A DNA stretch of 64,000 nucleotides from NCBI RefSeq assembly GCF_001639145.1, contig NZ_LROY01000002.1, forward strand, positions 1,582,501 to 1,646,500, written 5' to 3'. Shown here piece by piece: positions 39,385 to 63,846 of this stretch; positions within the stretch are counted from its first letter, which is position 1, and every line of letters begins with the position of its first letter. A model generated the notes under the pieces. The model was not told where the DNA came from, searched no databases, and saw nothing but the letters and a program-made list of their open reading frames with translations. This DNA is from Microbulbifer sp. Q7. GTDB taxonomy: Bacteria > Pseudomonadota > Gammaproteobacteria > Pseudomonadales > Cellvibrionaceae. A program made the translations under genes and the position numbers.

Positions 39385-39396
39385 ATTGTTGACCAT
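39385..39396. promoter_or_regulatory. Degenerate copy of the agar-island operator, upstream of dgoK
   Basis: ATTGTTGACCAT, 10 of 12 matches to ATTGTTAACAAT, 41 bases before the dgoK start. Weaker than the other copies but well placed. Confidence 0.45.
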
Positions 39397-39484
39397 TGAC
39401 CGATAATCACGCTCAATTCGGCCCCAGCCCACCTACCCGGGATATTTCGGTCGCCGGAAACAGGATTTAACCAGCTCCATTGTC

Positions 39485-39498
39485 AATTGTTAACAGTT
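39485..39498. promoter_or_regulatory. Agar-island operator between dgoK and the GntR gene
   Basis: AATTGTTAACAGTT, a 14-base palindrome with one mismatch, in the divergent dgoK-gntR interval (about 140 bases from dgoK, 245 from the regulator). It shares the core TTGTTAACA with five other sites in the island. Confidence 0.65.
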
Positions 39499-39740
39499 AG
39501 ATGGCGATTTTTCTTGCGGCCTGGGGTACTATCTGTTTATCCGGGTCTTGTTGTAGATTTATTACAAGTATCCGCATTGCCTTGTCGATCGCGGGCAACA
39601 AGGGCTGCCCTCCTCCTTTGGTCAGCGTCCCCACAGGATCGACCACTGTGAAGGATTCACAGGGGCAGCTGAACTCAATGTAAGACACGGTGGGAGAGGT
39701 CACTTCCCCACCCCAAGATAAATGGTGAGCAGAATCCATC

Positions 39741-40349
39741 ATGCGTGAAGCCACAAAGATCATCCCGGTGCGCGAGCAGATCGCGGACCAACTGCGCTCC
39801 GACATCATTTCCGGAGAACTCGCACCCACCACCAAACTGAACGAGCAGCAGCTCGCCAATCGCTTCGGCGTCTCCCGTGGGCCGGTGCGCGACGTACTGC
39901 TGCAGCTCACAAAAGAGGGCCTGCTGGTTGCCAAGAACAACTGCGGGGTGTCGGTAAACAGCGTACTGGACCCGTCCATGCAGGAGCTGATGATCGACAT
40001 ACGCCGCCGTATCGAGGTGTTCGCCATTTCCCAGCTAAAAGGCAAGCTGAGCGAGATGGATTTTGCCGAGCTGGAAGACATTCTGGACCGCCTGCAGGAC
40101 GCCTTTGACGCGCAGGAATTTAACGAGGTCACCAAAGCGGATATCGACTTCCACCGCTACCTGGTACAGGCTGCCGGTGGCGATGAGCTGACCAACCTGT
40201 GGTATCCCATCGTGCTGCGCATGCGTATGAACTACAAGCGCATCTCCCAGCCGAAAGACTGCGTGGATGAGCACCGCGCTATTCTCGACGCACTCAGGGC
40301 CAACAAGATCAACGTGGCCACTACCGCGCTGCGCGCAAACATCAAATAA
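39741..40349 (+). CDS. FadR-type GntR regulator of the agar island
   Basis: A 202-residue GntR-family regulator. The N-terminal winged helix is IPVREQIADQLRSDIISGEL, then NEQQLANRFGVSRGPVRDVL and LTKEGLLVAK. The C-terminal all-helical FCD domain is seen at about residues 75-200, with metal-ligand-like Asp and His in TKADIDFHRYLVQAAGG and CVDEHRAILDALR. FadR-subfamily proteins bind short palindromes of TNGT-ACNA type, which fits the ATTGTTAACAAT sites here. It is the only regulator in the island and faces dgoK, so it is the best candidate to repress the island until a sugar-acid intermediate binds. The effector is not known. Confidence 0.88.
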   Translation: MREATKIIPVREQIADQLRSDIISGELAPTTKLNEQQLANRFGVSRGPVRDVLLQLTKEGLLVAKNNCGVSVNSVLDPSMQELMIDIRRRIEVFAISQLKGKLSEMDFAELEDILDRLQDAFDAQEFNEVTKADIDFHRYLVQAAGGDELTNLWYPIVLRMRMNYKRISQPKDCVDEHRAILDALRANKINVATTALRANIK

Positions 40350-40367
40350 CCTGCAAAAAGGTTACTG

Positions 40368-40394
40368 AAGCCCGGCCAGGTACCGGGCTTTTTT
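40368..40394 (+). terminator. Terminator of the GntR gene
   Basis: AAGCCCGG (40368-40375), loop of 7, CCGGGCTT (40383-40390), then TTTT, 18 bases after the stop. Confidence 0.9.
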
Positions 40395-40506: not shown

Positions 40507-41961
40507 TCAAACTTCCGAGAGGTAGACCGTTTTCTTGTCCACGTACTGCTCAAGGCCGTAGCGACCATCCTCACCACCGATACCGGACAACTTCCAGCCG
40601 TTGTGGAAGCCTTGGTGCTGCTCGCCGATACCGCGGTTTACGTAAACTTCGCCGACTTCCATTTCCGCAATAGACTGATGGATGTAACGGAGGTTTTCGG
40701 TGAACAGGTACGCAGACAGGCCATACTCACTGTCGTTGGTGTAGGCGATCACTTCATCGATACTGGAGATCTTGACCACCGGCAGAATCGGACCAAAGGT
40801 CTCCTCGTGCACCAGAATGTTGTCCTGCTGCACGTTGGTCAGCACGGTGGGCTCGTACCAGTTGCCACCTTCAAACCCGGCCACCTGAGCAGGCTTGCCG
40901 CCGGTTGCCAGCTCGGCGCCCTGGGCAATGCTTTTCTGCACCAGCTCGTGAATGTGTTCGATCTCACGGGCGTTGACTTTAGGCCCCATCTGCGAGGACT
41001 CATCCAGCGGGTTGCCCACTTTCAGGGCCTTCACCTTTGGCAGGAATTTGTCCATAAACGCGTCGTACACGCTTTCGTGCACATACAAGCGCTCGGCGCA
41101 GGTGCACACCTGTCCGCAGTTGGCGTAGCGGGTCCAGAGAGCGGCTTCCGCGGCCTTATCCAGATCCGCGTCTTCCATCACGATAAACGGCGCCTTGCCA
41201 CCCAGTTCCAGCATCACCGGAATCATGTGCTTGCCACTGGCTTGGTGAATGATCTGGCCGGCGCGGGTGCTGCCTGTCATGGTGATCATCGCGGTCAGCG
41301 GGCTTTCGCACAGGGCCTGGCCGACAATCGAACCTTCGCCATTGACGATGTTCAGCACACCGGCAGGAATGCCCACTTCATTGGCAATACGCCCAAGCTC
41401 CATGGTGGTGAGCGGGGTTTCCTGGGTTGGCTTGATCACAATGGTGTTGCCGGTGATCAGCGCCGGGCCGATCTTGCGCCCGGCCAGTGCCAGCGGAAAG
41501 TTCCAAGCAGTAATCGCCACCACAACGCCCCGCGGAACCTTGTGGATATAGATTTTTTCGTCTTCGTTGTCCGAGGGCAGAATGTCGCCTTCCAGGGTTA
41601 GCGCATTATCACAGGCGTATTCGATAAAGGTCGCGGTCGCGTTGACTTCATCGCGGGCGACACCGATCAGTTTGCCCTGCTCTTTTACCAGCAGCTCCGC
41701 CAGCGATTCTGTTTCCGCACGAATGGCCGCCGCGAACTTGCGCAGTACTGCCGCGCGATCGCGCGCGGTGCGTTTCGCCCAGGGCTTTTGCGCGTCTTTG
41801 GCGACCTGCAGTGCAACGTCTGCGTCTTCCGCACAGCCTTTTGGAATACTGCCCAGCACTTCTCCGGTGCTCGGGTTCAGTACTTCAATGGTGCCGTCGG
41901 CCTTGGAAGTAACGTACTCGCCGTTTACAAAGTTGACGTTGGTTTTCAATTCGAGAGCCAT
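40507..41961 (-). CDS. Aldehyde dehydrogenase, probable 3,6-anhydro-L-galactose dehydrogenase
   Basis: A 484-residue NAD(P)-dependent aldehyde dehydrogenase, similar in pattern to AldA (lactaldehyde dehydrogenase). The NAD site is [20 protein letters not shown]; the general base Glu is in [18 protein letters not shown] and the catalytic Cys in [15 protein letters not shown]. In agar degraders this class oxidises 3,6-anhydro-L-galactose to 3,6-anhydrogalactonate, the first step of the route. It is the last gene of an operon with the cycloisomerase, Zn-dehydrogenase and SDR that follow in the same pathway. The substrate call rests on that context. Confidence 0.83.
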
Positions 41962-41963
41962 AG

Positions 41964-42728
41964 TTATCTCCCCATCCAGCCACCGTCCACCAGGAGGACG
42001 CTGCCATTCATATAATTGGAAGCTTCGGAAGCCAGGAATACCACCGGCCCCTTAAAGTCTTCGGGTTGTCCCCAGCGGCCCTGGGGAATACGCGCGAGAA
42101 TGCTCGCGGCGCGCTCACTGTCTTCGCGCAGTGCCTGGGTGTTATCGGTGGCGATATAACCCGGGGCGATGGCGTTCACGTTGACACCTTTCGACGCCCA
42201 CTCGTTGGACAACGCCATAGTGATCTGACCAATGGCACCTTTACTGGCCGCATAACCCGGTACGGTAATACCACCCTGAAAGGTCAGCAGAGAGGCGGTG
42301 AAAATGATCTTGCCGGAACCCTGCGCAACCATTTCCTTGCCGATTTCACGGCTCAGAATGAACTGGGCATTCAGGTTGACTTCGATCACCTTGTCCCACA
42401 GGTCATCCCCGTGCTCCGCCGCCGGCGCACGCAGAATGGTACCGGCGTTATTGACCAGAATATCAATCTTAGCGTGTTCGCTTTTCACCTTGTCGATAAA
42501 ACCGTAAAGGGAACTGCGGTCGGAGAAATCGCACTGGTAAGGAAAGAACTGTTTGCCAACGGCCGCCACTTCGCGACCCACTGCGGAATCGTTCAGGTCC
42601 AGATTGGCGGATACGCCGATCACATCCGCTCCCGCTTCCGCCAAGGCAACGGCCATGGCTTTGCCGATCCCGCGGTTACAACCGGTCACCAGAGCTTTTT
42701 TGCCGGCAAGGCTGAATTGTTCCAACAT
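41964..42728 (-). CDS. SDR, probable 2,5-diketo-3-deoxygalactonate reductase
   Basis: A 254-residue classical short-chain dehydrogenase. The cofactor motif is [20 protein letters not shown], with NNAGT ([14 protein letters not shown]), catalytic Ser in [11 protein letters not shown] and Tyr-Lys in [11 protein letters not shown]. It resembles KduD-type sugar-acid reductases. In the known anhydrogalactose route, a reductase of this family turns 2,5-diketo-3-deoxygalactonate into 2-keto-3-deoxygluconate. It ends two bases before the aldehyde dehydrogenase gene starts, and follows the Zn-dehydrogenase that would make its substrate. The exact substrate is inferred. Confidence 0.78.
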
Positions 42729-42771
42729 CGTTTTACTCTCTCAATTCTATTTCGGGAATACCCAGGACAGC

Positions 42772-43803
42772 TCAGTCCTCGGCTCCACACGCAACCAGCG
42801 CCTTCATACCGGACGGGTTGCCGTCCATGGAGGCAAAGGCACTACCGATATCGTTCAGTTGCGCGACCTTGCTGATAAACGGAACCAGGTCGATCTTGCC
42901 ACTGGCAACCATGTCGATGGCCTGCTCGAAATCCTGTGCTTCGTACACACGCGCACCCACCAGCTCCAGCTCACGCCAGAAGAACTTGAACAGATCCAGC
43001 TGCGGTTTCTGGGAGTGGATGGCCACCATGCAGATGCGTCCGCGTACCGCGGCAATCTCGGTCATGGCATCGACCGCCGGCTGCACGCCGGAAACCTCAA
43101 ATACCACATCGGCGCCCTTGCCACGAGTCCAGTCTTCCACTGCCGCTTTCAGGTCCTGCTCGATGGGGTTAACCGCCAGCGCACCGGTTTTTTCCGCAAA
43201 AGCGCGGCGCTCGGGGCTGGGCTCAGAAATCATCACCTCGGCACCAATGCCGAGGGCAACCTGGGCCACCAACTGGCCGATGGGTCCACCGCCAAGAATG
43301 ACGGCCTTCTCGCCCGCTTTCAGGCGCGCGCGGGAAATATCGTGGCAAGCAACGGCCAGCGGTTCGATCAGTGCGCCCTGCTGCAAGGAGACGTTTTCCG
43401 GCAGCTTGTGCAGGGTACGGGCCTTGACGTTCCAAAAGCTCTGGAACGCACCCACAGAGTCGATGCCCATAAACTTCAGGTTATGGCAGACATGGCTGTG
43501 ACCCTCGTTACACGCCGGGCAATCGCCACAGTAGTCCAGTGGGCGCACTACAACGCGCTCACCGACGCTGTAGTCTTTTACGTTCTCACCCACCGCATCC
43601 ACAACGCCAGACATTTCATGGCCGACAACCTGCGGTGGCTTTACACGCTGATCCATCACGCCGTGATAGATATGCATGTCGGTACCACAGATACCCACAT
43701 AACCCACTTTCAGACGAACCTCATCCGCCGCCGGCGCTTCACAGCGCCCTTCTACAACTTCAAACGATTTGTTGCCGACATACTGAGCAGCTTGAGCTTG
43801 CAT
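42772..43803 (-). CDS. Zn-alcohol dehydrogenase, probable L-KDGal 5-dehydrogenase
   Basis: A 343-residue medium-chain dehydrogenase. Catalytic zinc ligands fall in GYVGICGTDMHIYHG (Cys) and VVGHEMSGVVDAVGE (His-Glu). The structural zinc cysteines are CGDCPACNEGHSHVC. The NAD loop is AVILGGGPIGQLVAQVALGI. The start at 43803 has AGGTGA six bases upstream; two upstream start codons are less well placed. In the anhydrogalactose route this step oxidises 2-keto-3-deoxy-L-galactonate at C5 so that the next enzyme can invert it to the gluconate series. The neighbourhood supports this role, but it is not proven by sequence. Confidence 0.78.
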   Translation of the reverse strand: MQAQAAQYVGNKSFEVVEGRCEAPAADEVRLKVGYVGICGTDMHIYHGVMDQRVKPPQVVGHEMSGVVDAVGENVKDYSVGERVVVRPLDYCGDCPACNEGHSHVCHNLKFMGIDSVGAFQSFWNVKARTLHKLPENVSLQQGALIEPLAVACHDISRARLKAGEKAVILGGGPIGQLVAQVALGIGAEVMISEPSPERRAFAEKTGALAVNPIEQDLKAAVEDWTRGKGADVVFEVSGVQPAVDAMTEIAAVRGRICMVAIHSQKPQLDLFKFFWRELELVGARVYEAQDFEQAIDMVASGKIDLVPFISKVAQLNDIGSAFASMDGNPSGMKALVACGAED

Positions 43804-43815
43804 GAACATCACCTA

Positions 43816-44955
43816 TTAAGAGTGCTTGACCAGGTGTGGTCGCAGCAGGGTTTCATCAAAAGTCACCCCGGTACCCGGCTCGCTGGAGGCAACAGCGCGG
43901 CCGTTTTCCAGCACGATCGGACGGGTCGTGTATTCGTCTATGGGGAAAGAGTGCACTTCCAGATAGCCCGCGTGGGGCTGGCTTGCCATCAGCGACACAT
44001 GCAATTCGTGCATTCCGTGGCTGCACACCGGCAGGTTGTGCGCGTAGGCCAGCTCAGCGACTTTCAACCATCCGGTGATACCACCGATATTGGACGCATC
44101 CGGCTGCAGGAATCCGAGCTTGGATTGCGCGATGGCATAAGTGAACTCATGCACCGTGTGCAGATTCTCACCCATCGCCAGGGGAATATTGATGGCCTCA
44201 GCAATACGGCCATACCCCGGATAGTCATCGGGGATGGTGGGCTCTTCGAACCAGGTAATATCGCAGTGATCGATGGCGCGGCCAAAGCGTACCGCCTGCT
44301 CAATGGTCATCGAGTAGTTCGCATCCACCATGAAGGTGACGTCGTCACCAATCAGCTTGCGCACCGCCTCTACCCGCGCAACATCTTCCCTGTAATTTTC
44401 CTTACCGACCTTGATCTTCACCGCGTCGAAACCGCGGGCCAGGTAGCTGGAAATATTGTCCAGCAGTTTGGTCTCGGAGAAATTCAGGTCGATACCTCCG
44501 GCATAACACTTGGTGGTATTGCCCGCACCACCAGCCACTTTCCACAGCGGTAGCTCGAGACGCTTGCAGCGCAGATCCCACAAAGCGATGTCTACCGCTG
44601 ACAGCGCAAAGCTCAGCAAACCACCGCGGCCCACATAATGTAGATGGGACTGAATGCCCTCCCAGATAGCAAGGATGTCCGACGCATCGCGGCCTTCCAG
44701 CAGCGGCTGAATGTCATCCTGTAACAGGGAGTAAATGGCACGACCACCGCGGCCGCCGGTGTAGGTGTACCCCACGCCTTCCAGGCCATCCTGGCAACGC
44801 ACACGAAACACCAGCACTTCAAAGTGGGTATGGTCACCGTGACGCGCGTCGGAGAGCACTTCCGCCAGAGGAATCTGGTAATACTCAACCTTGGTGGCAG
44901 CGATGGTGCTCGAAGACAGCAGCTCTGCGGCCTGCTCTTGTACTTCCATCAACAT
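43816..44955 (-). CDS. Enolase-superfamily enzyme, probable 3,6-anhydro-L-galactonate cycloisomerase
   Basis: A 379-residue mandelate racemase/muconate lactonising-type protein. The capping domain is residues 1-130 (IAATKVEYYQIPLAEVLSDA). In the barrel, KIKVGKENYREDV carries the Lys-x-Lys pair, FMVDANYSMTIEQ the first metal Asp, ITWFEEPTIPDDY the second (Glu) and LAMGENLHTVHEF the third (Glu). CSHGMHELHVSLMA carries a catalytic-type His. In agarolytic bacteria such an enzyme opens the anhydro ring to give 2-keto-3-deoxygalactonate. First gene of the four-gene operon, with the operator inside its promoter. The start at 44955 is one of two close ATGs. Confidence 0.82.
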   Translation of the reverse strand: MLMEVQEQAAELLSSSTIAATKVEYYQIPLAEVLSDARHGDHTHFEVLVFRVRCQDGLEGVGYTYTGGRGGRAIYSLLQDDIQPLLEGRDASDILAIWEGIQSHLHYVGRGGLLSFALSAVDIALWDLRCKRLELPLWKVAGGAGNTTKCYAGGIDLNFSETKLLDNISSYLARGFDAVKIKVGKENYREDVARVEAVRKLIGDDVTFMVDANYSMTIEQAVRFGRAIDHCDITWFEEPTIPDDYPGYGRIAEAINIPLAMGENLHTVHEFTYAIAQSKLGFLQPDASNIGGITGWLKVAELAYAHNLPVCSHGMHELHVSLMASQPHAGYLEVHSFPIDEYTTRPIVLENGRAVASSEPGTGVTFDETLLRPHLVKHS

Positions 44956-45030
44956 GGAGGAACCCCAAAATCCGTGATTTTTTATTAGCACTTCAACACT
45001 TCTAATGATTAGACCTCAATCAATGGAACC

Positions 45031-45058
45031 ATTGTATATTGTTAACAATTAACATCAA
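45031..45058 (-). promoter_or_regulatory. Promoter of the anhydrogalactose operon with operator in the spacer
   Basis: On the minus strand TTGATG (45053-45058) and TACAAT (45031-45036) form -35 and -10 elements separated by 16 bases. The perfect palindrome ATTGTTAACAAT (45038-45049) fills that spacer, the classic position for a repressor. Confidence 0.7.
45038..45049. promoter_or_regulatory. Agar-island operator, perfect copy
   Basis: ATTGTTAACAAT, a perfect 12-bp palindrome, 83 bases before the cycloisomerase start, lying between -35 and -10 elements on the minus strand. Confidence 0.75.
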
Positions 45059-45453: not shown

Positions 45454-45465
45454 TTTGTTAACAAT
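45454..45465. promoter_or_regulatory. Agar-island operator, upstream copy
   Basis: TTTGTTAACAAT, with TTGTTAACAA (45455-45464) a perfect 10-bp palindrome. It lies beyond the terminator of the GH50 operon and 499 bases before the cycloisomerase start, so it probably acts on the latter operon from a distance. Confidence 0.65.
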
Positions 45466-45533
45466 CTACAGTCATCCAAGACCAATGTAAATCCTTTAAT
45501 GGTATATGTCAGGCATAAACCCTTGTTTTGCCA

Positions 45534-45571
45534 ACAAAAAAAGCGCGATGCCCTTACGGACAGCGCGCTTT
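45534..45571 (-). terminator. Terminator of the permease-SDR-dgoD-GH50 operon
   Basis: AAAGCGCG and CGCGCTTT arms (45540-45547 and 45564-45571) around a 16-base loop, followed on the minus strand by a T-run; 33 bases after the GH50 stop. Confidence 0.8.
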
Positions 45572-45603
45572 CATTCATCACCCTAGGTTTGCCGCAGGCG
45601 CGT

Positions 45604-48039
45604 TTACTCTTTTTCCAACTTCACATCGCCAAAGCGCCGTTCGTAAAGTCCCTCGTGGACTTCCTTGGCCGCCTTGACTAGCTCCGCGTAAGGAACATCC
45701 GCTACCGATACAAAGCCATTGGCATAGTTCTCACCGTCGTAGGCGCGGCCGGTGATCGGGGAATCCATGTACTGGAACATATGCACACCCACAAACCAGG
45801 GGTTATCGATAAACGAGTGCATATAGTTTTTGAACATACGGCCACGGTCTTTCTGATCCGCGGAGATCACGATACCCGGGTGGAAATGCCCCTGATCGTC
45901 GGAGCCGAAGCTGAACTCACCGATCAGACTGGGCTTGTCGATTTCCGCCAGGAAATCCCACTTGGACGGCACCAGCCCTTCCTCGTAGAGGTTGTAGCTG
46001 ATGATGTCTACATTCTTGCCCGCCGCCTTGACGATTTCCGGCGGCATACCCCAGCTCGGCAGACGGGAGCCGAGATACAGGTGATTCGGAAGCACAGACT
46101 TCATCGCTTTGTTGATGGTGCCGAAGTACTGGTTGCCGTATTCAAACAACAGGGTCGCGTAATCTTCGCGCTGGGCATCGGTGGTGAGCGTGGAATCCAT
46201 GCCCTTCTCGAACGCCTCCCAGGAAGCGACGTTTTTATTCCAAGCTTTGTTCAATGCCTCAATGGTGCCGTACTTTTCTTTCACCACTTTGGTGAACGCA
46301 CCCTTGGCCGGGGTATCCGCAGCATCCCGGGACAGCGCGTTGATCACGATACCGTAGTGCAGCTCGTCGCTTTCCAGCCGACCAAAGCTCTGCTCGTTAT
46401 CGAAGAAAATACCCATGCACCAAGGGCTCGCCTGGATCTGCTCGCTTACCGCCTTCGCCGCCACGACTGAGCGCTGGTAAAAACGCGGATCGTAGGGATC
46501 AGGCACAGGATGCCAGAAATCAAAGCCACTGCTCAGTGTGCTGAACTCACCGATAATGTCCGCAAAGGCTACAAATGGAATGCGCTGCTGCTCGTAAAAA
46601 GGGTCCGCAGCCCAGTTGCCGAGGGAGGTAAAGCCCCAATCCAGCATGCGATCAACCGTTACCCTCTGCCAGGTGTCCAGATAAGACTCGGGATAGGTTT
46701 CTCCGTAGCGACGCTCGAGGTTGGCACTGTAGAAACTGAAGGTCTCGCCGTGCTTCAACGGACCGGACTGGGTTTCACGGCGGTAGCCGTAGTGATTGCC
46801 CAGCTCATCATCGTAACCCGGCAACCAGTTGAACATGTTCGCGCGGGTTTCGGAGATCAGTTCGCGTGTGGCCCAGGCTGCTTCATTGACACGGTTCAGG
46901 GGCTGATCGTCTTCCGCAATCACTTCATCGGCACTGCGCTTGGGGATCAGCGCCTGGTCGTAGTCGTAGCCGGTGATGGTGGAAGAGTTCGACAGGCGGA
47001 TAATGTCGATCCCGGTGGAGAAGTAAAGATATCCCTCTGGATCTACAATGGCCCACTTGCCGTTGACCTTTTCTGTGCGGAAATAACCGGTGGCTTCCAG
47101 TTGCGGGCCGCTCTTCCAGCCGCTGAATTTAGAGCGATCCGCGTTGGGTTTTCCGGAAAGACTGGCAAGCTCCTCCTCGACGACTTTCTTCAGCTCTTCG
47201 TCCGAGTGGATCTTGCCTTGATAGTCGACCTTGGCGTTCTGGCCGTATTTGTCCAGCAGGCCGGTGAGGAAGTTTTTATCCATCTCCGGGTTTGCGCGCA
47301 AGCGCAGATTGTCGATGGTGTACTGACGGTTGCTCAGGCTGCCATCAGAGCCAAAAGCGATCTGGGTAATACCGGACAGATCCAGTAGTTTTTTGCCCCA
47401 GAAGGAATGCAGCATGATGTCGTCGGACTGCCAGGTAGGCGGATTGGAGCGCAGGCCAGAGGCGAAGTTGAATTCGTTCTGGGCCGCCGCCTTGGGATCT
47501 TCCTGATCGTGGCCGTGCAGTTTGGCGTAGTATGTACGCGAAGTTCCGTCCGCAGGCACTACCAGGCCACGAGTATAGAAATCACCATTTTTATCGCCCA
47601 TGGTGACATCGATCTGTACCGATTCCTCGCCGTGGTTGGCCACATCAAACGCGAGGTTGAAATCCGAGAACTCGCTCCAATCCCAGGCTTCCGCCGGCTT
47701 GATGACCAGGCCGGCGCCGTTGTTATCGGCAAGGTTGAGCTTTACCTGCAGCGCTTTGCCGCCGGCACCGTCATCCACCAGGTTGGCAGTGCCATTGTTG
47801 ACCTGCACCGACCCGGGAATACCCCCGCTGTCAAAATTCTCCAGCACAAAGTCCTGCGCCAATAGATTAGAGTCTGCGCTGCTCACCGCGCTCACACTCG
47901 GTTCACTACCCTTCCGTTCGCCGGAGCAGGCGGCTAGTCCGCTCAAAGCTGCCGCGGTAATGGCGAGGCTCAACACGGAGCGCATCAGTGGCCCAGTAGT
48001 TTTTTTGGCAAAGGCTGTGGTTTCCATCGTCTCACTCAT
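45604..48039 (-). CDS. GH50 beta-agarase-like lipoprotein (copy 1)
   Basis: An 811-residue predicted lipoprotein (LSLAITAAALSGLAACSGER, lipobox LAAC). Residues about 60-260 form a carbohydrate-binding-like beta domain (NFDSGGIPGSVQVNNGTANL). The GH50 barrel follows (GYLYFSTGIDIIRLSNSSTI; WGFTSLGNWAADPFYEQQRI). The two catalytic glutamates expected for GH50 are E549 (GIFFDNEQSFGR, acid/base) and E708 (KPSLIGEFSFGSD, nucleophile). GH50 enzymes mostly release neoagarobiose from agarose or oligosaccharides. Last gene of the permease-SDR-dgoD operon. The start could also be four codons later. Confidence 0.92.
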   Translation of the reverse strand: MSETMETTAFAKKTTGPLMRSVLSLAITAAALSGLAACSGERKGSEPSVSAVSSADSNLLAQDFVLENFDSGGIPGSVQVNNGTANLVDDGAGGKALQVKLNLADNNGAGLVIKPAEAWDWSEFSDFNLAFDVANHGEESVQIDVTMGDKNGDFYTRGLVVPADGTSRTYYAKLHGHDQEDPKAAAQNEFNFASGLRSNPPTWQSDDIMLHSFWGKKLLDLSGITQIAFGSDGSLSNRQYTIDNLRLRANPEMDKNFLTGLLDKYGQNAKVDYQGKIHSDEELKKVVEEELASLSGKPNADRSKFSGWKSGPQLEATGYFRTEKVNGKWAIVDPEGYLYFSTGIDIIRLSNSSTITGYDYDQALIPKRSADEVIAEDDQPLNRVNEAAWATRELISETRANMFNWLPGYDDELGNHYGYRRETQSGPLKHGETFSFYSANLERRYGETYPESYLDTWQRVTVDRMLDWGFTSLGNWAADPFYEQQRIPFVAFADIIGEFSTLSSGFDFWHPVPDPYDPRFYQRSVVAAKAVSEQIQASPWCMGIFFDNEQSFGRLESDELHYGIVINALSRDAADTPAKGAFTKVVKEKYGTIEALNKAWNKNVASWEAFEKGMDSTLTTDAQREDYATLLFEYGNQYFGTINKAMKSVLPNHLYLGSRLPSWGMPPEIVKAAGKNVDIISYNLYEEGLVPSKWDFLAEIDKPSLIGEFSFGSDDQGHFHPGIVISADQKDRGRMFKNYMHSFIDNPWFVGVHMFQYMDSPITGRAYDGENYANGFVSVADVPYAELVKAAKEVHEGLYERRFGDVKLEKE

Positions 48040-48089
48040 TTTATTTTTTGATACTCGCCGAACGCCGTCCGGCATACGCAGTAGATTTC

Positions 48090-49244
48090 TTACCAATTGG
48101 TGTAGCTGCCATCCGGCTTGTACAACCGCGGTGCTTCCCAGAACTTGAACGACTGCTCGGCAATCATTTCCTCGTTCACATCGATACCGATGCCCGGTGC
48201 ATCCCCCACCGGATACACCCGATTTACTTCTTTCGGCCGGTTGATGAAATACTTGTCGTGATCCGACTTGTTGCTGTCGTAGGGGGCAATTTCACACCAG
48301 GACAGATTCGGTACCGCCGCACACATCTGGATGGTTGCCGCGGTACACACCGGGCCCAGCGGATCGTGGGGCATGATGTCGATGTAATGGCTTTCTGCCA
48401 TCGCGGCCACTTTCATCGCCTCGGTCAAACCGCCCACGTTGCACACGTCGATGCGGGCAAAGTTGGTAATGTCTTTTTCGATATAGGGCAGAAAATCCCA
48501 CTTGCTGGCAAACTCCTCGCCGATGGCAAAGGGTACATTCACCATGTTGCGCAGCCCCCGATAGGCCGACACCGACTGATCGCGGATCGGCTCTTCCAGA
48601 AAATCGAGCACGCCCTCCCCCAGTTTCTGGCAGAAGCTCGCGGTTTCGGCAACGGAGAGGCGGTGGTGGTAGTCGATACCGAGTACCAACTCATCCCCGA
48701 GCTCCTGACGGATTTCCTTCAGGCTTCCGGCTGCGGCGGCAATAGATTTGCGCACATCAAACGTGGTTGGCTCGGTGGGGGAACCGTGTTCGCCGGTGGT
48801 TGCGCGGATCACTTCCCAGCCCTGCTCGCGCAGCGCACGGAAATCGTCCAGCAGCGCCTGGCCCATGGGCTTGGTGGAGGTCACAAACAGTGGAATTTCA
48901 TTGCGCTGCTTGCCGCCCAGTAATTGGTAGGTCGGCACGTTCAATGCCTTGCCGGCAATATCCCACAGTGCGATATCAATCGCAGAAATCGCCGCGGTGA
49001 GTACGCGGCCGCCTTCAAAATATTGACTGCGGTACATCTCCTGCCACACGGCACCGATGTTGCGCGCATCACGACCAATCAAAAATTCACGAAAATGCTT
49101 TACCGCACCAGCGACGGCCAGTTCGCGACTGGAAAGGCCAGACTCGCCCCAGCCGTAAATGCCCGCATCGGTTTCCACCTTCACCAGACAAAGGTTACGG
49201 TGCCCTACCCAGGCGGGATACACCTTGATATCGGTAATCTTCAT
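48090..49244 (-). CDS. dgoD: D-galactonate dehydratase family protein
   Basis: A 384-residue enolase-superfamily protein that dehydrates D-galactonate to 2-keto-3-deoxygalactonate. It begins MKITDIKVYPAWVGHRNLCL and matches DgoD across its length: AISAIDIALWDIAGKALNVP, GIDYHHRLSVAETASF (metal Asp), LDFLEEPIRDQS (Glu), PFAIGEEFASKWDF (Glu) and DIMPHDPLGPVCTAATI (catalytic His). Its substrate would come from galactose oxidised by the next gene's product and hydrolysed by the SMP-30 lactonase; DgoK and DgoA then complete the route. Separated by 13 bases from the SDR gene. Confidence 0.88.
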   Translation of the reverse strand: MKITDIKVYPAWVGHRNLCLVKVETDAGIYGWGESGLSSRELAVAGAVKHFREFLIGRDARNIGAVWQEMYRSQYFEGGRVLTAAISAIDIALWDIAGKALNVPTYQLLGGKQRNEIPLFVTSTKPMGQALLDDFRALREQGWEVIRATTGEHGSPTEPTTFDVRKSIAAAAGSLKEIRQELGDELVLGIDYHHRLSVAETASFCQKLGEGVLDFLEEPIRDQSVSAYRGLRNMVNVPFAIGEEFASKWDFLPYIEKDITNFARIDVCNVGGLTEAMKVAAMAESHYIDIMPHDPLGPVCTAATIQMCAAVPNLSWCEIAPYDSNKSDHDKYFINRPKEVNRVYPVGDAPGIGIDVNEEMIAEQSFKFWEAPRLYKPDGSYTNW

Positions 49245-49257
49245 CCTTGTGCTCCGC

Positions 49258-50031
49258 TTATTTCAGATCGTCGGTGGGACACAGACTGGCACTGAGGCCG
49301 TGGTCCGCGGTGATATTGGAACCGGTCATGGCACCGGAACAGGGTGAAAGCAGGAAAGCGGCGATATGCCCTACTTCTTCCACCGTGTTGTATTTATTGT
49401 CTGCGTGCATCTTGTCGAAGGATGCCGCCAGCGCCGGATTTGCATCCGCCACTTTGGCGACCGCTTCGGTTTTGGTCAGCCCGGGGCAGAGGCTGTTTAC
49501 GCGGATGCCTTTTTTACCCAGGCTCCAGGCCATGGCGCGGGTCATGGCGACGATGGCGCCCTTGGTGGCCGCATACATCTCGTATCCCGCGACACTGGCA
49601 CCGGCGTGATTGGACGCGATATTCACAATGGCAGCACCCGCCTGCATATGACGCGCGGCCGCCTGGCACAATAGAAAAACCGAGCGCTGATTCACTTCCC
49701 ACAGGCAGTCGAGCTTATCCAGATCGAACTCGAGAAAATTTCCCTCAATGGTGACGCCCGCGTTGTTTACCAGGCCGTCGATACGGCCGAAACGCTCCAC
49801 CACCGATTCGATAAACGGCGCAATCGCCGAGGCGTCACCCACATTCAACGGCAAGTAGGCGCTTTCAAATCCGCGATCACGCAGAGTCTCCACCCGGTTA
49901 CTCGCATCGTTGATATCCGCCAGCACCACCGTGGCACCCGCCTCGGCACACACCTGTGTGATACCCCAGCCGATGCCCGCAGCGGCACCGGTGACGATAA
50001 CAACCTTCTGATCCAGCAAGGCTTTAGACAT
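49258..50031 (-). CDS. SDR, putative galactose (aldose) 1-dehydrogenase
   Basis: A 257-residue short-chain dehydrogenase. The cofactor loop is VVIVTGAAAGIGWGITQVC, LVNNAGVTIEGNF follows, then Ser in IVNIASNHAGASVAG and Tyr-Lys in YEMYAATKGAIVAM. LADINDAS after the second strand has an Asp, which favours NAD over NADP. Its place between a sugar permease and dgoD suggests it starts the oxidative galactose route by making galactonolactone; other aldose or sugar-acid substrates are possible. It is distinct from the KduD-like SDR at 41964. Confidence 0.68.
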   Translation of the reverse strand: MSKALLDQKVVIVTGAAAGIGWGITQVCAEAGATVVLADINDASNRVETLRDRGFESAYLPLNVGDASAIAPFIESVVERFGRIDGLVNNAGVTIEGNFLEFDLDKLDCLWEVNQRSVFLLCQAAARHMQAGAAIVNIASNHAGASVAGYEMYAATKGAIVAMTRAMAWSLGKKGIRVNSLCPGLTKTEAVAKVADANPALAASFDKMHADNKYNTVEEVGHIAAFLLSPCSGAMTGSNITADHGLSASLCPTDDLK

Positions 50032-50073
50032 GAAAACTTCTCACTTTATTGAGCAGTCCACCCAGGCGCGCGC

Positions 50074-51639
50074 TTACGCGCGCACCATGGCCGCTTCAAT
50101 CTCTTCGATGGATTTGTTTTTGGTTTCAGGCAACAAGCGGTACAGCAACACCAGGCTGACACTGATACAGGCGGCATAGAACAGGAAGATTTCCGTCGCC
50201 CCCATATTATTCAGCTGCCATGGGAAAAACTGCTGCACAAAGTAGCTGACGGTGCTGACGATCAATGCGAAGAACGGAATGGCAACGCCGCGCACATAGG
50301 TGGGGAAAATTTCCGAGAAAAGCACCCACATTACCGGCCCAATAGACAGGTTGAACGAAGCGATAAAGCACATGATGCCCATCAACACCAGCGTCGCGTC
50401 GATCTGGATTGCTTCCTGAATCAACGCCCCCTCGTTGGCCCGCGCCGTCGCCTCGCCCAGGGCCTGGTACATGGCCTGCTTGAAAGCCACGTCAGTTTCA
50501 AACGCGGTGCCCACCAGTGCCTGAAGCCCGGACACGTCAATATTCGCGTCGGCCAGCGCCTGCAGGGAAGACACTGTTAATTCATAGCTCGCCTGGCTGA
50601 ACGCCCAACTGCACAAAAACAGGCTTGCGCCTCCCCAGGCGAGACCAAACAGCACCAGCGGGCGGCGGCCGAGGCGGTCAATCAGCAACAGCGCCAGAAT
50701 AGTAAACATTACACTTACCACCCCCACAATCACCGCCTGCATGAAGGCGGCATTGGTGCCGATGCCCACCTGCTCAAACACGGTGGGCGCATAGAACATA
50801 ATCGCATTGATCCCCGTAATCGGCTGAGCAACAGCAATCACCAGGCCGACCCAGAAGGCGGTACGCAGACGCGGCTTAAAGATTTCGGCCACTTGCTGAC
50901 GGAAGCTGCCGGTCGGCGCGGCGGCCGCGCTCTCCTGGATTTCTAGAATATGAGGCTCAATATGCCCTTCCGGCAACAGTTTGCCCATAACCGCGCGTGC
51001 CTCATCCAGACGACCCTTCAGCACCAGCCAGCGCGGACTCTCTGGAATTTGCAGCAGCATCAGCAGCCAGATCAGTGCCGGGATCACTTCCACACCCAGC
51101 ATCCAGCGCCAGGTGTACTGATCGATCCCCAATGCGGTCACCCAGGCGGCATCCGCATTGGATGCCTGCAAAATCAGATAGTTGGCAAAGTACGCCGCGG
51201 AGAGCCCCACCACAGTAGTGATCTGGTTCATGGACACCAGTTTGCCGCGCATTTGCGGCGGTGCGATTTCGCCGATATACATGGAGGCAAGGGAAAGTGA
51301 GGTAAACGCAAGGCCACCAAGGAAGCGCGCAGCCACAAGCATTTCAAAATTGGGCGCGAGTACAGAGCCTATTGCGGAGACGAGATAGAGGGCGGCAATC
51401 AACAGCAGCGCGGTTTTTCGGCCCCACGCATCGCAGATGCGCCCGGTAACCATCAGCGCGAAAATAACCCCGAAACCGGGGGCGCTGACGACAGTGCCCA
51501 CTTGCAGGTCCGACAGCGTAAACTCGGCAGTAATAAATCGCACGGTGCCGGAGATCAGCGCCGCATCGAGACCGAAAATGAAACCACCGAATGCCACGAT
51601 CGCAGCAAACTTAAAGGCGGTCAGTTGGAATCCTCTCAT
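50074..51639 (-). CDS. MFS sugar-porter permease
   Basis: A 521-residue major-facilitator transporter of the sugar porter (GLUT/XylE-like) type with 12 membrane segments. Start MRGFQLTAFKFAAIVAFGGF with AGAGGG upstream. Signatures are GRICDAWGRKTALLL, LQIPESPRWLVLKGRLDEA, LIDRLGRRPLVLFGL and LLPETKNKSIEEIE. A longer loop (residues about 300-380 carry LQALADANIDVSGLQALVGT) is inserted between membrane segments in the second half, which is unusual for the family. It heads the permease-SDR-dgoD-GH50 operon and probably imports galactose, anhydrogalactose or a disaccharide. Confidence 0.88.
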   Translation of the reverse strand: MRGFQLTAFKFAAIVAFGGFIFGLDAALISGTVRFITAEFTLSDLQVGTVVSAPGFGVIFALMVTGRICDAWGRKTALLLIAALYLVSAIGSVLAPNFEMLVAARFLGGLAFTSLSLASMYIGEIAPPQMRGKLVSMNQITTVVGLSAAYFANYLILQASNADAAWVTALGIDQYTWRWMLGVEVIPALIWLLMLLQIPESPRWLVLKGRLDEARAVMGKLLPEGHIEPHILEIQESAAAAPTGSFRQQVAEIFKPRLRTAFWVGLVIAVAQPITGINAIMFYAPTVFEQVGIGTNAAFMQAVIVGVVSVMFTILALLLIDRLGRRPLVLFGLAWGGASLFLCSWAFSQASYELTVSSLQALADANIDVSGLQALVGTAFETDVAFKQAMYQALGEATARANEGALIQEAIQIDATLVLMGIMCFIASFNLSIGPVMWVLFSEIFPTYVRGVAIPFFALIVSTVSYFVQQFFPWQLNNMGATEIFLFYAACISVSLVLLYRLLPETKNKSIEEIEAAMVRA

Positions 51640-51733
51640 CGGATAACCCTCTTTTATTGTTATGGGCACTCCGACCACAAATACGCTGGGGTATCGTCAG
51701 GTCGTACGGTCGGCCGCCACGTAATGTTGGCCC

Positions 51734-51762
51734 ATCATACAACCTCAATCCTTTTTTGTTAA
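51734..51762 (-). promoter_or_regulatory. Promoter of the permease operon
   Basis: TTAACA (-35, plus-strand 51757-51762) and TATGAT (-10, 51734-51739) with exactly 17 bases between them. The -35 lies inside the operator palindrome, so a bound repressor would block it. Confidence 0.65.
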
Positions 51763-51766
51763 CAAT
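51755..51766. promoter_or_regulatory. Agar-island operator between permease and dgoA
   Basis: TTTGTTAACAAT in the 219-base divergent region; core TTGTTAACAA is a perfect palindrome. It could control both the permease operon and dgoA. Confidence 0.75.
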
Positions 51767-51858
51767 TAACTATATACAAATATTCCTACCTCCCTTTATA
51801 CTGCATCCATCCTGCCCCGTCACCGGGAAAAGATCAGTAAAGAGCACAGGAATACACG

Positions 51859-54205: not shown

Positions 54206-54217
54206 TTTGTTAACAAT
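54206..54217. promoter_or_regulatory. Agar-island operator upstream of the sulfatase
   Basis: TTTGTTAACAAT, 49 bases before the sulfatase ATG. It overlaps a possible -35 (TTGTTA); a weak -10 TACACT follows 18 bases later. Confidence 0.72.
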
Positions 54218-54265
54218 ATACAGATGGCGTTACACTACCCCAATTAATCAGCATTGGGGGGCAAC

Positions 54266-55708
54266 ATGTCATTCCGGATCAGCGGCCGATTGGTTGCCGC
54301 GCTACTCACCTTACCGATAATCGCTGCGCTCACCATACCGTCCGCGGCCGCCGCGGCCCCAAAAAAACCAAATATCGTTCTGATTCTAGCGGACGACGCG
54401 GGCTACGCGGATTTCGGCTTTCAAGGCAGCGAGGTGTTTCAGACACCGAACATTGACCGCATCGCGAAAAACGGCACCCGTTTTGCGCAGGCCTATGTAA
54501 GTGCCGCGGTATGTGGGCCATCCCGCGCGGGCCTGATCACCGGAAAATACCAGCAGCGTTTCGGCTATGAGGAAAACAATGTGCCGGGCTATATGAGTGC
54601 AAGTGGCGCCACCGGGGACGATATGGGCCTGCCGCTGGACGAAAAAACCATCGCGGATTACCTCAAACCACTGGGCTACCACAGCGCCATTCTGGGCAAA
54701 TGGCACTTAGGCAATGCGGATCGCTTCCACCCGCTGAAACGGGGCTTTGACGAGTTTTACGGTTTTCGCGGCGGCGCCCGCTCCTACTTCCCATTCGATG
54801 AAAGTAATCCCAACCACCGCCGGGAGGATTTTCTCGAGCGCGGCTTCGGTGTTTTCGCGGAAACACCAAAATACTTTACCGACGCGCTGACCGATGAGGC
54901 GGTCGCCTTTGTCGAGCGCAACCAAGACAAGCCCTTTTTCCTCTACCTTTCGTACACTGCAGTGCACGCCCCCATGGACGCGTTGCCAGAGGATCTGGCT
55001 GCCTTCCCTCAACTTTCCGGCAATCGCCAGAAAGTCGCTGCCATGACCAGGGCCCTGGACAGAGGTGTTGGTAAGCTGCTCAACACACTGGAAAAAACAC
55101 GCTTGATCGACAACACCCTGGTTGTGTTTACCAACGATAACGGCGGGCCCACGGATCACAACGCCTCCAATAATTATCCCCTGAGCGGCACCAAGGCCAC
55201 GCATCTGGAAGGGGGAATCCGGGTGCCGTTTGTCACGCAGTGGCCTGGCCAGATACCGGCAAACCAGACATTCGCCCACCCCAGCAGCCTACTCGACCTG
55301 CTGCCGACGTTTTACTCCGCCGCTGGTGGAGATTCATCGAACCTTAAAGGAATCGACGGAGTAAACCTTTTACCCTACCTCACCGCCGAAACCACCGGAA
55401 AGCCGCACCAGTCCCTCTACTGGAAAAAAGAAAACCGCGCAGCTATTCGGGATGGCGACTGGAAACTACTGCGTTTCCCGGACAGGCCTGCCGAACTCTA
55501 TAATCTTGTCGACGATGCCAGTGAAAGCAATAATCTTGCCCGGCAATACCCGGAAAAAGTAACCGCGCTGTACCAAAAGCTATTCCAGTGGGAACTGCAA
55601 CTGGATCGGCCAAAATGGCAATTGAGGCGGGAATTCGAAGGACAGGCGATGAAGCGGATGGACGCTTTTAGAAAGGCAAAATTGCCCGAGGCATCAAGTA
55701 ATCACTGA
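54266..55708 (+). CDS. Secreted sulfatase (family S1, Cys-type)
   Basis: A 480-residue exported arylsulfatase-like enzyme. The ATG at 54266 follows GGGGGG, and the signal peptide (LVAALLTLPIIAALTIPSAA) ends near AAA. The active-site signature is VCGPSRAGLITGKYQ, in which the Cys is converted to formylglycine by a maturase. Metal ligands are in LILADDAGYADFGF (Asp-Asp) and VVFTNDNGGPTDHN (Asp-Asn); the substrate-facing KWHLGNADRFHPLKRGFDEF is typical. It would remove sulfate esters from galactan chains such as porphyran, agaropectin or carrageenan so that the agarases can act. The S1 subfamily cannot be set by eye. Confidence 0.9.
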   Translation: MSFRISGRLVAALLTLPIIAALTIPSAAAAAPKKPNIVLILADDAGYADFGFQGSEVFQTPNIDRIAKNGTRFAQAYVSAAVCGPSRAGLITGKYQQRFGYEENNVPGYMSASGATGDDMGLPLDEKTIADYLKPLGYHSAILGKWHLGNADRFHPLKRGFDEFYGFRGGARSYFPFDESNPNHRREDFLERGFGVFAETPKYFTDALTDEAVAFVERNQDKPFFLYLSYTAVHAPMDALPEDLAAFPQLSGNRQKVAAMTRALDRGVGKLLNTLEKTRLIDNTLVVFTNDNGGPTDHNASNNYPLSGTKATHLEGGIRVPFVTQWPGQIPANQTFAHPSSLLDLLPTFYSAAGGDSSNLKGIDGVNLLPYLTAETTGKPHQSLYWKKENRAAIRDGDWKLLRFPDRPAELYNLVDDASESNNLARQYPEKVTALYQKLFQWELQLDRPKWQLRREFEGQAMKRMDAFRKAKLPEASSNH

Positions 55709-56853: not shown

Positions 56854-56857
56854 ACTT

Positions 56858-61318: not shown

Positions 61319-63705
61319 TACCGGTTCGCCTTTTTATTTTTGTCCGTAGTGCCACCAAATCTTCGCTGGTAGAGGTTTTCGTTAACTTCCTTAACCGCAT
61401 TTACCAGTGGTGTGTAGGGGATATCGGTCACGCTGACAAAACCCACGTTGTAGTTCTCCCCATCGTAGGCACGCCCGGTCAACGGAGAGTCGATGTACTG
61501 GAACCAGTGGGCACCGACAAAATACGGATTGTCGATCACGCTATTCATATACTCGGCGAACTTCTTGCCGCGGTCTGCCTGCGAGCTGGCGTGGATCAGC
61601 CCGGGATTCAACAGACCGGAATCCAGTGCTCCGTTGTGAAACTCACCAATGATGGAAGGCCGATCGATTTCCGCAAGAAAATGCCAGAACTTGTCGCTGA
61701 CACCTTCCTTGTAGTAGTTGTAGCTCACCACGTCCGCGTATTTGGCCGCAGCACTACGGACCTCCGGCGTCATCCCCCAGGTAGCGAAGCGCGCCCCCAA
61801 ATACATATGATTGGGCATGTAGTGCTTGACCGCTTCCCTTACGATCTTGAAATACTGGCCGGTGAAGTGCTCCAGCATGGTGGAGAAATCTTCCACCATG
61901 GCTGCGTTGAAGCCACTGAGTGCTACACCACGGGCGAAGCTGTCCCAGTCTTGTAACTGGATATTCCATGCGCTATTCAGCTTGGCAATTTCCCCATACT
62001 TATCCTGCATCAGTTGTGCAAACTGCGCCTTGGTGGGGCTCTCTTTTGCTGAGCGGCTCAGGGTATTGATGACGATGCCATACTGCGACGCGGTGGAGCC
62101 CTCCTGCCCCCAGCTCTTCTCGTTGTCCACAAAGACGCCCACACACCAGGGACTGTTTTCGACTTCTTTGGCGATCTGCTCTGCGGTGATATAGGCGCGC
62201 TCTTTGAACAGCGGATCAAACGGGTCCGGCAGTGGGCTCCAGTAGTCATTGCCACTGCTCACAGTTTTGAAGTTGCCAATAATCCAGCCATTGGCGAAGT
62301 ACGGAATTCGATCCATCTGGTAGTAATCGGAATCAATCCAGTTGCCGAAGGAGGTAAAACCCCAGCTGAGCATGCGATCAACGGTGGTATCCCGCCACTT
62401 CGCCATCAGCTGCTCTTCATCCGCAATGTCATACTTACGCTGCAGATTCGCCCGGTAAAAGCTGAACGTCTCGCCGTGCTCTATCGCTCCGGTATGCACC
62501 TCACGGCGATAGCCAAAGTTCTGCCCCAGAGGTTCGTCATACTCCGGTAACCAGGTAAACATCTCTGCGCGCAGAGGCGAGCTGATATAGCGCGTCGGAA
62601 GGGCCGCATCCGGAACCGGGTTCAGACCGAGAGAATCCTCCGGCGTCAGATCACCGGGGGTGCGCTGAGGGACTTTGGCCTTGTCAAAGTCATACCCGGT
62701 AATGGTGGAGGTATTGGCCAGGCGCACGTTGGCAATACCTGTGGAGAAGAACAGATACCCTTCCGGATCTACCAGTGCCCATTTACCATCGACTTTTTCC
62801 GTACGGAAGAAGCCGGTCGCCTCCAGCTTTGGCCCTTCTGCCCAGCCACCAAATCGCGAGCGTCCTTCGAGAGGCGTATGGCGCAAATCAGCCAGCTCCT
62901 CACCAGCGTAGTCGCGTAGCTCTTCCACAGAATGCACTTTGTTGGCGAATTCCATTTTGGCATTTTGACCAAACTGATCCACCAGCCCGTTGAGATAGTT
63001 TTGGTCCAGTGTTTCCGGCTTGATCAACCGAACATTGTCGATGGTCAGTGTTTTGTCTTCCAGAACACCGGCTACCGAGAACTCAATGCGCTCAATGGCG
63101 CTAACGTCCAGCTGCTTTTCGCCATGGCGAAAAATAATATCCTGATAGGCGCTATTCCAGCTGGGCGGGTTGGAGCGGATACCGGTTACCACAGAAAGGT
63201 CCGGGCCCTTGAGTTCCATATAGTAGGTATTCTGAGATTGCTCGGGCACCACAAAACTGCGGCTGTGCAGTCGCCCTTCACCGTCAAACGCTTTTACATA
63301 GAGGTGTACCGACGATGGCTGCGCATTATCAATATCCAGCGCAAAGGCAAAATTACCCAGGTTACTCCAGTCCCAGCTCTTATCGGCAGAAAACGTAAAT
63401 GAAGCTGCGTAGTGCGCTTTGGTTTGCAGCTGTAGCCGGAGTGCCTGGCCGGCACCCGTTGAAACCAGGCGACCATTCGCATTCTCCAGTTTGATCGATT
63501 CCGGGAGCTTCTTGTTCTCGAAATTCCAGAGTACTACCGGATCCGCTTCGGCTGATTCCGTTCCACTCAATCCTTCTGCACTGGATAATTTGTCGCCAGA
63601 TACCGTTTCGGCCGCGGCCAGGGTATTCCCATCTGAGCGACCGCACCCGGTGAGACACAGGGCACAAATTAAAAATGCCGTTAGCCATTGATTGGCGAAA
63701 TTCAT
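61318..63705 (-). CDS. GH50 beta-agarase-like lipoprotein (copy 2)
   Basis: A 795-residue lipoprotein starting MNFANQWLTAFLICALCLTG with lipobox LTGC; GGAG precedes the ATG. It shares its whole architecture with the first GH50: a binding-like domain (residues about 60-260, NFENKKLPESIKLENANGRL), then the barrel (GYLFFSTGIANVRLANTSTI; WGFTSFGNWIDSDYYQMDRI). The catalytic glutamates are E529 (GVFVDNEKSWG) and E688 (RPSIIGEFHNGA). The two copies are clearly diverged, not a recent duplication. First gene of an operon with the GH2 fusion and the lactonase. The longer frame to 63834 is rejected. Confidence 0.92.
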   Translation of the reverse strand: MNFANQWLTAFLICALCLTGCGRSDGNTLAAAETVSGDKLSSAEGLSGTESAEADPVVLWNFENKKLPESIKLENANGRLVSTGAGQALRLQLQTKAHYAASFTFSADKSWDWSNLGNFAFALDIDNAQPSSVHLYVKAFDGEGRLHSRSFVVPEQSQNTYYMELKGPDLSVVTGIRSNPPSWNSAYQDIIFRHGEKQLDVSAIERIEFSVAGVLEDKTLTIDNVRLIKPETLDQNYLNGLVDQFGQNAKMEFANKVHSVEELRDYAGEELADLRHTPLEGRSRFGGWAEGPKLEATGFFRTEKVDGKWALVDPEGYLFFSTGIANVRLANTSTITGYDFDKAKVPQRTPGDLTPEDSLGLNPVPDAALPTRYISSPLRAEMFTWLPEYDEPLGQNFGYRREVHTGAIEHGETFSFYRANLQRKYDIADEEQLMAKWRDTTVDRMLSWGFTSFGNWIDSDYYQMDRIPYFANGWIIGNFKTVSSGNDYWSPLPDPFDPLFKERAYITAEQIAKEVENSPWCVGVFVDNEKSWGQEGSTASQYGIVINTLSRSAKESPTKAQFAQLMQDKYGEIAKLNSAWNIQLQDWDSFARGVALSGFNAAMVEDFSTMLEHFTGQYFKIVREAVKHYMPNHMYLGARFATWGMTPEVRSAAAKYADVVSYNYYKEGVSDKFWHFLAEIDRPSIIGEFHNGALDSGLLNPGLIHASSQADRGKKFAEYMNSVIDNPYFVGAHWFQYIDSPLTGRAYDGENYNVGFVSVTDIPYTPLVNAVKEVNENLYQRRFGGTTDKNKKANR

Positions 63706-63834
63706 AGGTACTCGCTCCATTAACATTCGATAAATACGAAAACACTTGAACGCTCGGCAGAAGATCCGGCACTGAGTGCCTGGAAATGCGAACGAATCCC
63801 CATTCCGCATCTGAGCAATCACTGGCCACTTCAA

Positions 63835-63846
63835 ATTGTCAACAAT
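63835..63846. promoter_or_regulatory. Agar-island operator between GH50 and GH16 genes
   Basis: ATTGTCAACAAT, 11 of 12 matches to the palindrome. On the minus strand it contains a perfect -35 TTGACA for the GH50 operon; it lies 76 bases before the GH16 ATG. Confidence 0.7.

Follow-up and report, generated by a model that had tools for sequence, protein, structure and literature searches.

A predicted three-box operator and its probable GntR/FCD reader in the agar/porphyran island of Microbulbifer sp. Q7

A short palindrome recurs in a 64,000-nucleotide stretch of the Microbulbifer sp. Q7 genome (contig NZ_LROY01000002.1, positions 1,582,501 to 1,646,500; "the window", whose numbering is used for coordinates unless stated otherwise), where it precedes nearly all transcription units, as judged by gene arrangement, of an agar/porphyran island. 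The same motif precedes one unlinked agarase gene. The palindrome is probably the operator of a dedicated agar-catabolism regulator, the GntR/FCD protein encoded at 39741. An earlier note on this DNA had counted seven sites. That number is right for the window, but the island, of ~57 kb, extends 30 kb beyond it, and the predicted regulon is larger: the island has 12 strong places and a weak one, and one or more further places are unlinked.

The core of the palindrome, TTGTTAACA, occurs exactly at 39487, 45039, 45455, 51756 and 54207, which confirms the five core sites previously listed and shifts their coordinates by 1-2 bases. Nine strand-matches to this 9-mer were observed in the window, where 0.32 would be expected, and none of 100 shuffled sequences contained nine or more. 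Allowing one mismatch gave 13 matches in the window against 8.1 expected, which is not significant, and a longer motif was therefore needed for the two weaker sites, at 39385 and 63836. Both had been described as altered copies of the core; the site at 63836 does differ from it by one change, while that at 39385 is only a weak variant, scoring 12-13 bits. The 10-bp palindrome TTGTTAACAA is present five times in the 3,953,171-base genome, and all five copies lie in the island, four in the window and one at the window-equivalent position 85087, 21 kb past the window end; the pattern read backward occurs once. The refuting outcome named earlier, a motif at background frequency across the genome, did not appear in these pattern searches. 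The genome has 11 exact copies of an extended 15-mer, TGTYRACAATNNACA; ten belong to the island and the last to contig C1. This count is partly in-sample because the 15-mer was defined on the genome's own sites. The C1 copy (C1:85635-85649) is the sole unlinked exact match. It played no part in defining the motif, yet it lies just upstream of an open reading frame (L093 3242-5605, with the site near 5635-5649) that encodes an Agarase_CBM domain (PF17992, E 3.1e-35) and is taken as a GH50-type agarase. A second match on C1, at 479339 (L020), has one mismatch and falls within a sulfatase-like frame; it was taken as background. The close relative G088 likewise has an agarase-domain match on C1 with a site nearby.

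Further evidence came from a 19-bp matrix built on 74 sites, each within one mismatch, from other genomes. Training left out the Q7 genome itself, its closest relative (G088), loci from GntR-negative genomes and the distant loci L030-L033, although many of the training loci had been fetched with patterns from the Q7 genome. Over 117.5 kb of that genome, the matrix gave 14 matches of 23.5-34.1 bits at 12 places, six of them in the window (39479, 45031/45038, 45454, 51755, 54206 and 63835) and six past its end (71059, 71188, 73885, 85079/85086, 85225 and 94335, in window numbering). All 12 lie outside genes of at least 150 codons. The place at 73885 falls in a 142-codon frame that has no Pfam match and is taken as spurious, and the one at 63835 begins one base past the longest frame of a GH50 gene. 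The best intragenic match in the scanned DNA reaches 10.1 bits, and sequence shuffled in 100-bp blocks (five shuffles) gave a mean of 0.6 matches of at least 12 bits and 2.0 of at least 10 bits. No matrix match of at least 12 bits falls within the initial 36 kb of the window. AT-rich intergenic DNA does raise the background of such a motif, and the repeats might then be chance occurrences or a mobile sequence element rather than operators. No other support for this explanation was found, and its probability is negligible: it is opposed by the shuffle and reversed-pattern controls and by conservation of the sites in relatives, and it is contradicted by the intergenic position of every strong place in the island.

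Alignment of the sites gives TGT-YR-ACAAT-NN-ACA, that is, a palindrome with an extra ACA seven bases beyond the previous one. The predicted operator thus has the form TGT-N2-ACAAT-N2-ACA; it is usually asymmetric, and its palindrome has a 2-base centre. TTGTYRACAA cores occur ten times in the island, nine times between genes and once within a gene (83326), and this last core, which lacks a third box, was dropped from the third-box count. Among the nine intergenic cores, chosen by the palindrome alone, seven have a third box, TNNACA, on at least one side (the core at 45039 on both), and in the remaining two a single change turns it into TTAACT. The third box also accompanies 12 of the 18 cores present in ten related loci. 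The chance of a third box is ~0.8% per core if base frequencies are equal, and somewhat higher in AT-rich DNA. With 83 de-duplicated sites, drawn from Q7 and other genomes, a few of them GntR-negative, the flanks extend the boxes towards ATTGT-NN-ACAAT-NN-ACAat. The plain 10-bp palindrome was rejected as the complete motif, the third box being found on most cores; this third half-site is conserved and belongs to the predicted operator. The double site at 45031-45056 has four boxes, ATTGT-AT-ATTGT-TA-ACAAT-TA-ACA.

The proposed reader of all these sites is a protein of 202 amino acids encoded on the plus strand at 39741..40349. It has an N-terminal GntR winged helix-turn-helix (PF00392, E 1.5e-17, 63.4 bits with a cut-off of 27) and a C-terminal, all-helical FCD domain (PF07729, E 6.2e-19, 69.1 bits with a cut-off of 24.3). 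In the predicted structure (mean predicted local distance difference test score 83, predicted template modelling score 0.71), the helix-turn-helix starts at residue 10 and helices are found between residues 78 and 201. Among the PDB matches listed, the fold is nearest to McbR, PmiR and VanR. The best solved sequence relative is PmiR of Pseudomonas aeruginosa (7xp0), at 27% identity; PmiR (PDB 7xp0/7xp1) is presumably the same protein as the P. aeruginosa regulator PrpR. Assignment to the FadR subfamily, as first suggested, does not hold. E. coli FadR (1e2x) ranks 47th among the 50 PDB matches listed, and the predicted operator has a 2-base centre, whereas FadR-subfamily operators proper have a 3-base centre; the fold belongs instead to the FCD group of McbR, PmiR and VanR. 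Operators of FCD-group GntR proteins are palindromes of TNGT...ACNA type, and across genomes the regulator gene is found together with predicted sites that read TTGT-YR-ACAA. The protein is not a PrpR/PmiR orthologue, given the 27% identity to 7xp0 and the location of its putative sites at agar genes rather than methylcitrate genes.

Metal-binding FCD proteins use an aspartate and three histidines as ligands (in part PMC7674646). Residues D134, H138 and H178 of the regulator are invariant in the 26 orthologues aligned, and Asn200 is likewise invariant, at a place where the distant FCD-like proteins of L030 and L033 have a C-terminal histidine. That histidine is likely a metal ligand in L030 and L033. 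The scan of island proteins turned up no other DNA-binding regulator domain; it did not take in two long frames that lie antisense to recognised genes. A protein search returned 621 homologues of the regulator, and the names among the 120 listed include Saccharophagus, Agarilytica, Thalassotalea agarivorans and Paraglaciecola. In a class-wide search of 369 genomes, evenly sampled from a larger group, the regulator was found only in its own genome at E 1e-50. A search of plasmid records using the first 8 kb of the window was uninformative.

The distribution of regulator and motif was compared across 144 genomes of the family, with orthologues defined by E 1e-20 or better and at least 62% identity. 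Orthologues of gntR are present in 29 genomes, and these hold 142 copies of TGTYAACAATNNACA (mean 4.9), as against 26 copies (mean 0.23) in the 115 genomes without the gene. The reversed pattern is about evenly spread, with four copies in GntR-positive genomes (mean 0.14) and 19 in GntR-negative ones (mean 0.17). The difference in motif copies has a Mann-Whitney P of 1.3e-19 when genomes are treated as independent, and in each of the ten genera that have members with and without the gene, the mean copy number is higher in the GntR-positive genomes. The 600 bp preceding gntR contain TGTNNACAATNNACA with at most one mismatch in 22 of the 29 genomes (0.3 expected) and exactly in 17 (none expected). 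The association extends to another order. On a Catenovulum plasmid, a regulator 62% identical to that of Q7 is divergent from the same operon for 3,6-anhydro-L-galactose (AHG) catabolism, with an exact site between the two, and the 40.6-kb Catenovulum stretch holds six further one-mismatch places as compared with two for the reversed pattern. A correlation between regulator and operator was also found: residue 51 is Glu in five Gilvimarinus/Marinimicrobium-type genomes and Asp in the other 24, and a pyrimidine-purine operator centre is found in 12 of 36 sites accompanying Glu51 regulators and in 46 of the other 68 (P 0.001; sites from 16 of the 29 GntR-positive genomes). This link is confounded by ancestry and was set aside as proof. 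Taken with the presence of a single regulator domain among the scanned island proteins and with PmiR as nearest solved relative by sequence, the co-occurrence and the upstream sites support the earlier choice of the GntR protein as reader.

Promoter-like sequences bear on how the regulator would act, and matches to them were counted as weak evidence. Minus-strand sigma-70-like pairs overlap three sites, at 45058-45031, 45491-45463 and 51762-51734, and so bear out the earlier observation that some sites sit on -35/-10 pairs. At 45031-45056, the double site spans the stretch that separates the -35-like from the -10-like element of the cycloisomerase operon. The 45454 site overlaps the -10-like element at 45468-45463, and the one at 51755 overlaps a -35-like element belonging to the permease operon; a plus-strand pair at 51773-51802 just reaches the end of this last site. 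The regions of the 45031/45454 and 51755 sites contain three and two promoter-like pairs, respectively, where shuffled sequence gives means of 0.8 and 0.4. Because promoter-like pairs overlap three of the sites, we infer that binding represses.

Several observations weigh against a GntR repressor acting at all of these sites. No sigma-70-like pair was found at 39385/39487, 54207 or 63836, that is, in three of the five regions scanned. In seven of the 29 genomes, including all four of the Cellvibrio-type group g9, the 600 bp before gntR contain no site with at most one mismatch. Two GntR-positive genomes, G042 and G044, have no strict TGTYAACAATNNACA copy; they hold seven and eight copies, respectively, of the laxer TGTNNACAATNNACA and none of its reversed pattern. 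Finally, the cycloisomerase (28 genomes) and a GH50-type domain (28 genomes) are confined to GntR-positive genomes, and the only GntR-positive genome without the cycloisomerase is 72% complete; co-occurrence alone therefore cannot part the regulator from the island. As the three travel together, co-occurrence names no binder, and the sites could be read by another, unlinked regulator, for example of LacI or AraC type, with the GntR protein a passenger or in control of a subset. The regulator-domain scan, which covered island proteins only, is compatible with such a reader. It is quite unlikely, however, given the sites upstream of gntR in 22 genomes, the site between gntR and its divergent neighbour in Catenovulum, and half-sites and spacing that match the ones described for a relative from the same family of proteins (PMC9765439). 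The GntR protein might also bind the sites but activate, or repress some units and activate others. The three regions lacking a promoter-like pair would fit this, as would several intergenic regions in which a pair of sites lies at unequal distances (e.g. 71059/71188 and 85079/85225). Activation is nonetheless unlikely, since sites overlap -35/-10-like elements at three places and the characterised relatives considered here repress (PMC9765439, PMC12288454, PMC8012715).

Comparison with these relatives is in keeping with repression by the GntR protein. Pathway repressors of GntR/FCD type that govern a local regulon are well known. P. aeruginosa PrpR (PA0797) is a GntR/FCD repressor of one catabolic pathway that shifts a 250-bp fragment including the predicted operator ATTGTCGACAAT, located 84 bp upstream of its own gene; the boxes and 2-base centre of ATTGTCGACAAT are as in the Microbulbifer form ATTGT-YR-ACAAT (PMC9765439). 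PrpR differs in serving propionate rather than agar and in having a plain 12-bp palindrome without the third box (PMC9765439). E. coli DgoR is a GntR/FadR-family repressor of galactonate catabolism with TTGT/ACAA half-sites, and its inverted repeat IR1 contains TTGTAGTACAA; unlike the Microbulbifer system, it has a 3-base centre, two inverted repeats over one promoter, a single operon and D-galactonate as effector (PMC12288454). DgoR is not among the six PDB sequence matches of the regulator at a limit of 1e-8. E. coli NanR is a GntR-type repressor that reads more than two half-sites per operator, as the proposed reader would, although its sites are GGTATA repeats bound by three dimers with help from a 32-residue N-terminal extension (PMC8012715). 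In the predicted Microbulbifer operator, by contrast, an inverted pair is followed 7 bp further along by a single box, and the model of the regulator places the start of the helix-turn-helix at residue 10. A tentative extension, possible but doubtful, is that the three-box array (four-box at 45031), with its 7-bp steps, is read by overlapping or cooperative FCD dimers that share the middle ACAAT, a geometry between the palindromes of PrpR and FadR and the direct repeats of NanR, and that it serves as one master switch for agar and porphyran across agarolytic Gammaproteobacteria.

In the proposed mechanism, a GntR dimer would grip the TTGT-N2-ACAA palindrome, and the third box may add affinity, possibly by way of a second dimer that has the middle box in common with the first; it may instead be contacted from outside the helix-turn-helix. 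The bound protein would block RNA polymerase at the promoter until released by an agar-only sugar acid, most likely anhydrogalactonate or 2-keto-3-deoxy-L-galactonate, and release would lead to joint induction of the enzymes, the porins, the sulfatase and the two branches of sugar use. That the inducer belongs to the anhydrogalactose branch is probable for three reasons: the regulator is accompanied by the cycloisomerase in 28 of 29 genomes, it adjoins the cycloisomerase operon even in a different order, and galactose is not agar-specific. The regulator probably controls its own gene and dgoK as well.

The gap between gntR and dgoK (2-keto-3-deoxy-galactonokinase; 38442..39344, minus strand; Pfam DGOK, 3.9e-87) contains two sites on the minus strand. 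The strong one (39479..39497, 28.5 bits) lies 134 bp from the dgoK start. The weak variant, TGGTCAACAATCAACCA (39378..39403, 13.2/12.0 bits), lies 33 bp from it and has one exact match in the genome. Relatives of this variant precede dgoK in four of six related loci (L021, L022, L023 and L025, 4.7-12.8 bits; not L024 or L026). With up to three mismatches, the variant pattern is at background level genome-wide (33 matches, as against 46 for the reversed pattern). In the variant, both outer boxes are jointly altered to TGGT/ACCA, with the middle ACAAT kept; the outer boxes may be read as a pair.

Names of pathway steps rest on family matches and on the Catenovulum annotation of the same operon. 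The double operator at 45031..45056 lies 39 bp from the gene for 3,6-anhydro-L-galactonate cycloisomerase (43816..44991, minus strand; PDB 5xd7, E 2.3e-154), the first gene of an operon running from 44991 to 40507. The remainder (40507..43812, minus strand) encodes an aldehyde dehydrogenase, a short-chain dehydrogenase/reductase (SDR) and a Zn-alcohol dehydrogenase, in a gene order identical to that of Catenovulum. The operator at 51755..51773 (plus strand) is 76 bp from an apparent operon for a GH50 agarase, a galactonate dehydratase-like enzyme, an SDR protein and a major facilitator superfamily sugar permease (45604..51678, minus strand), and 85 bp from a KDPG/KDPGal-type aldolase gene (51859..52512, plus strand; Pfam Aldolase, 2.1e-26). 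The operator at 54206..54224 (plus strand) is 29 bp before a sulfatase gene (54254..55708, plus strand) and 196 bp from a divergent DUF4862 gene. The operator at 63835..63853 (plus strand) separates a divergent GH16 agarase gene (from ~63922) from an operon (63834-55810, minus strand) for a GH50 agarase, an FG-GAP/ASPIC-GH2 protein and an SMP-30 lactonase. The second of these products (56858-61318) looked unusual: it has 1486 residues and fuses FG-GAP/ASPIC-UnbV repeats with GH2 glycosidase domains.

Past the window, sites front an aldehyde dehydrogenase-kinase-enolase group together with two genes of porphyranase type, operons for a TonB receptor and for a PfkB kinase, and a further operon for a second TonB receptor, a halogenase and SapC, from which a SOUL gene diverges. 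Together with those in the window, these genes show that the sites span enzymes acting outside the cell, uptake and the two inner branches of sugar use. The first group (L006 3699-7506) comprises an aldehyde dehydrogenase, an APH-type kinase and an enolase paralogue, and it could convert glyceraldehyde to glycerate, 2-phosphoglycerate and phosphoenolpyruvate beside the usual aldolase route.

The site at 45454..45472 (plus strand) is an orphan, located in the gap that separates the cycloisomerase gene from the GH50 operon's downstream end. At the equivalent place, Microbulbifer sp. HZ11 has a GH50-like gene of 775 amino acids with a matching site just upstream. The Q7 interval 44992-45603 retains a 37-residue scrap 65% identical to that gene (E 1.4e-11), and 188 bases around the site align with HZ11 at 76%. 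The 45454 site is therefore most likely the leftover operator of a decayed GH50 gene; it still looks intact, and a promoter-like pair overlaps it. A move of the lost gene to C1 was rejected: the two are ~42% identical, and the C1 agarase is thus a different paralogue.

GntR regulators beside marine polysaccharide pathways are known from Saccharophagus degradans (AlgR) and Microbulbifer HZ11 (gntR), although there the substrate is alginate and not agar, and the parts consulted describe no operator (PMC3124978, PMC11678492). The L-AHG pathway of agarolytic Gammaproteobacteria uses the same cycloisomerase, and Catenovulum has the same operon beside an orthologous regulator. In the best-ranked papers and consulted passages of the open-access literature, to which the search was confined, no regulator or operator is described for agar use or the L-AHG pathway in agarolytic Gammaproteobacteria, a provisional absence.

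Work on agar breakdown in marine bacteria has mostly taken one enzyme at a time. For an entire agar/porphyran island, it is now possible to name a regulator, a probable operator and a list of targets, and to transfer them to other genomes. The operator also serves as a finder, having revealed an unlinked agarase gene and the operator left by a decayed one. Which molecule signals the presence of agar to the cell becomes a question testable with one purified protein.

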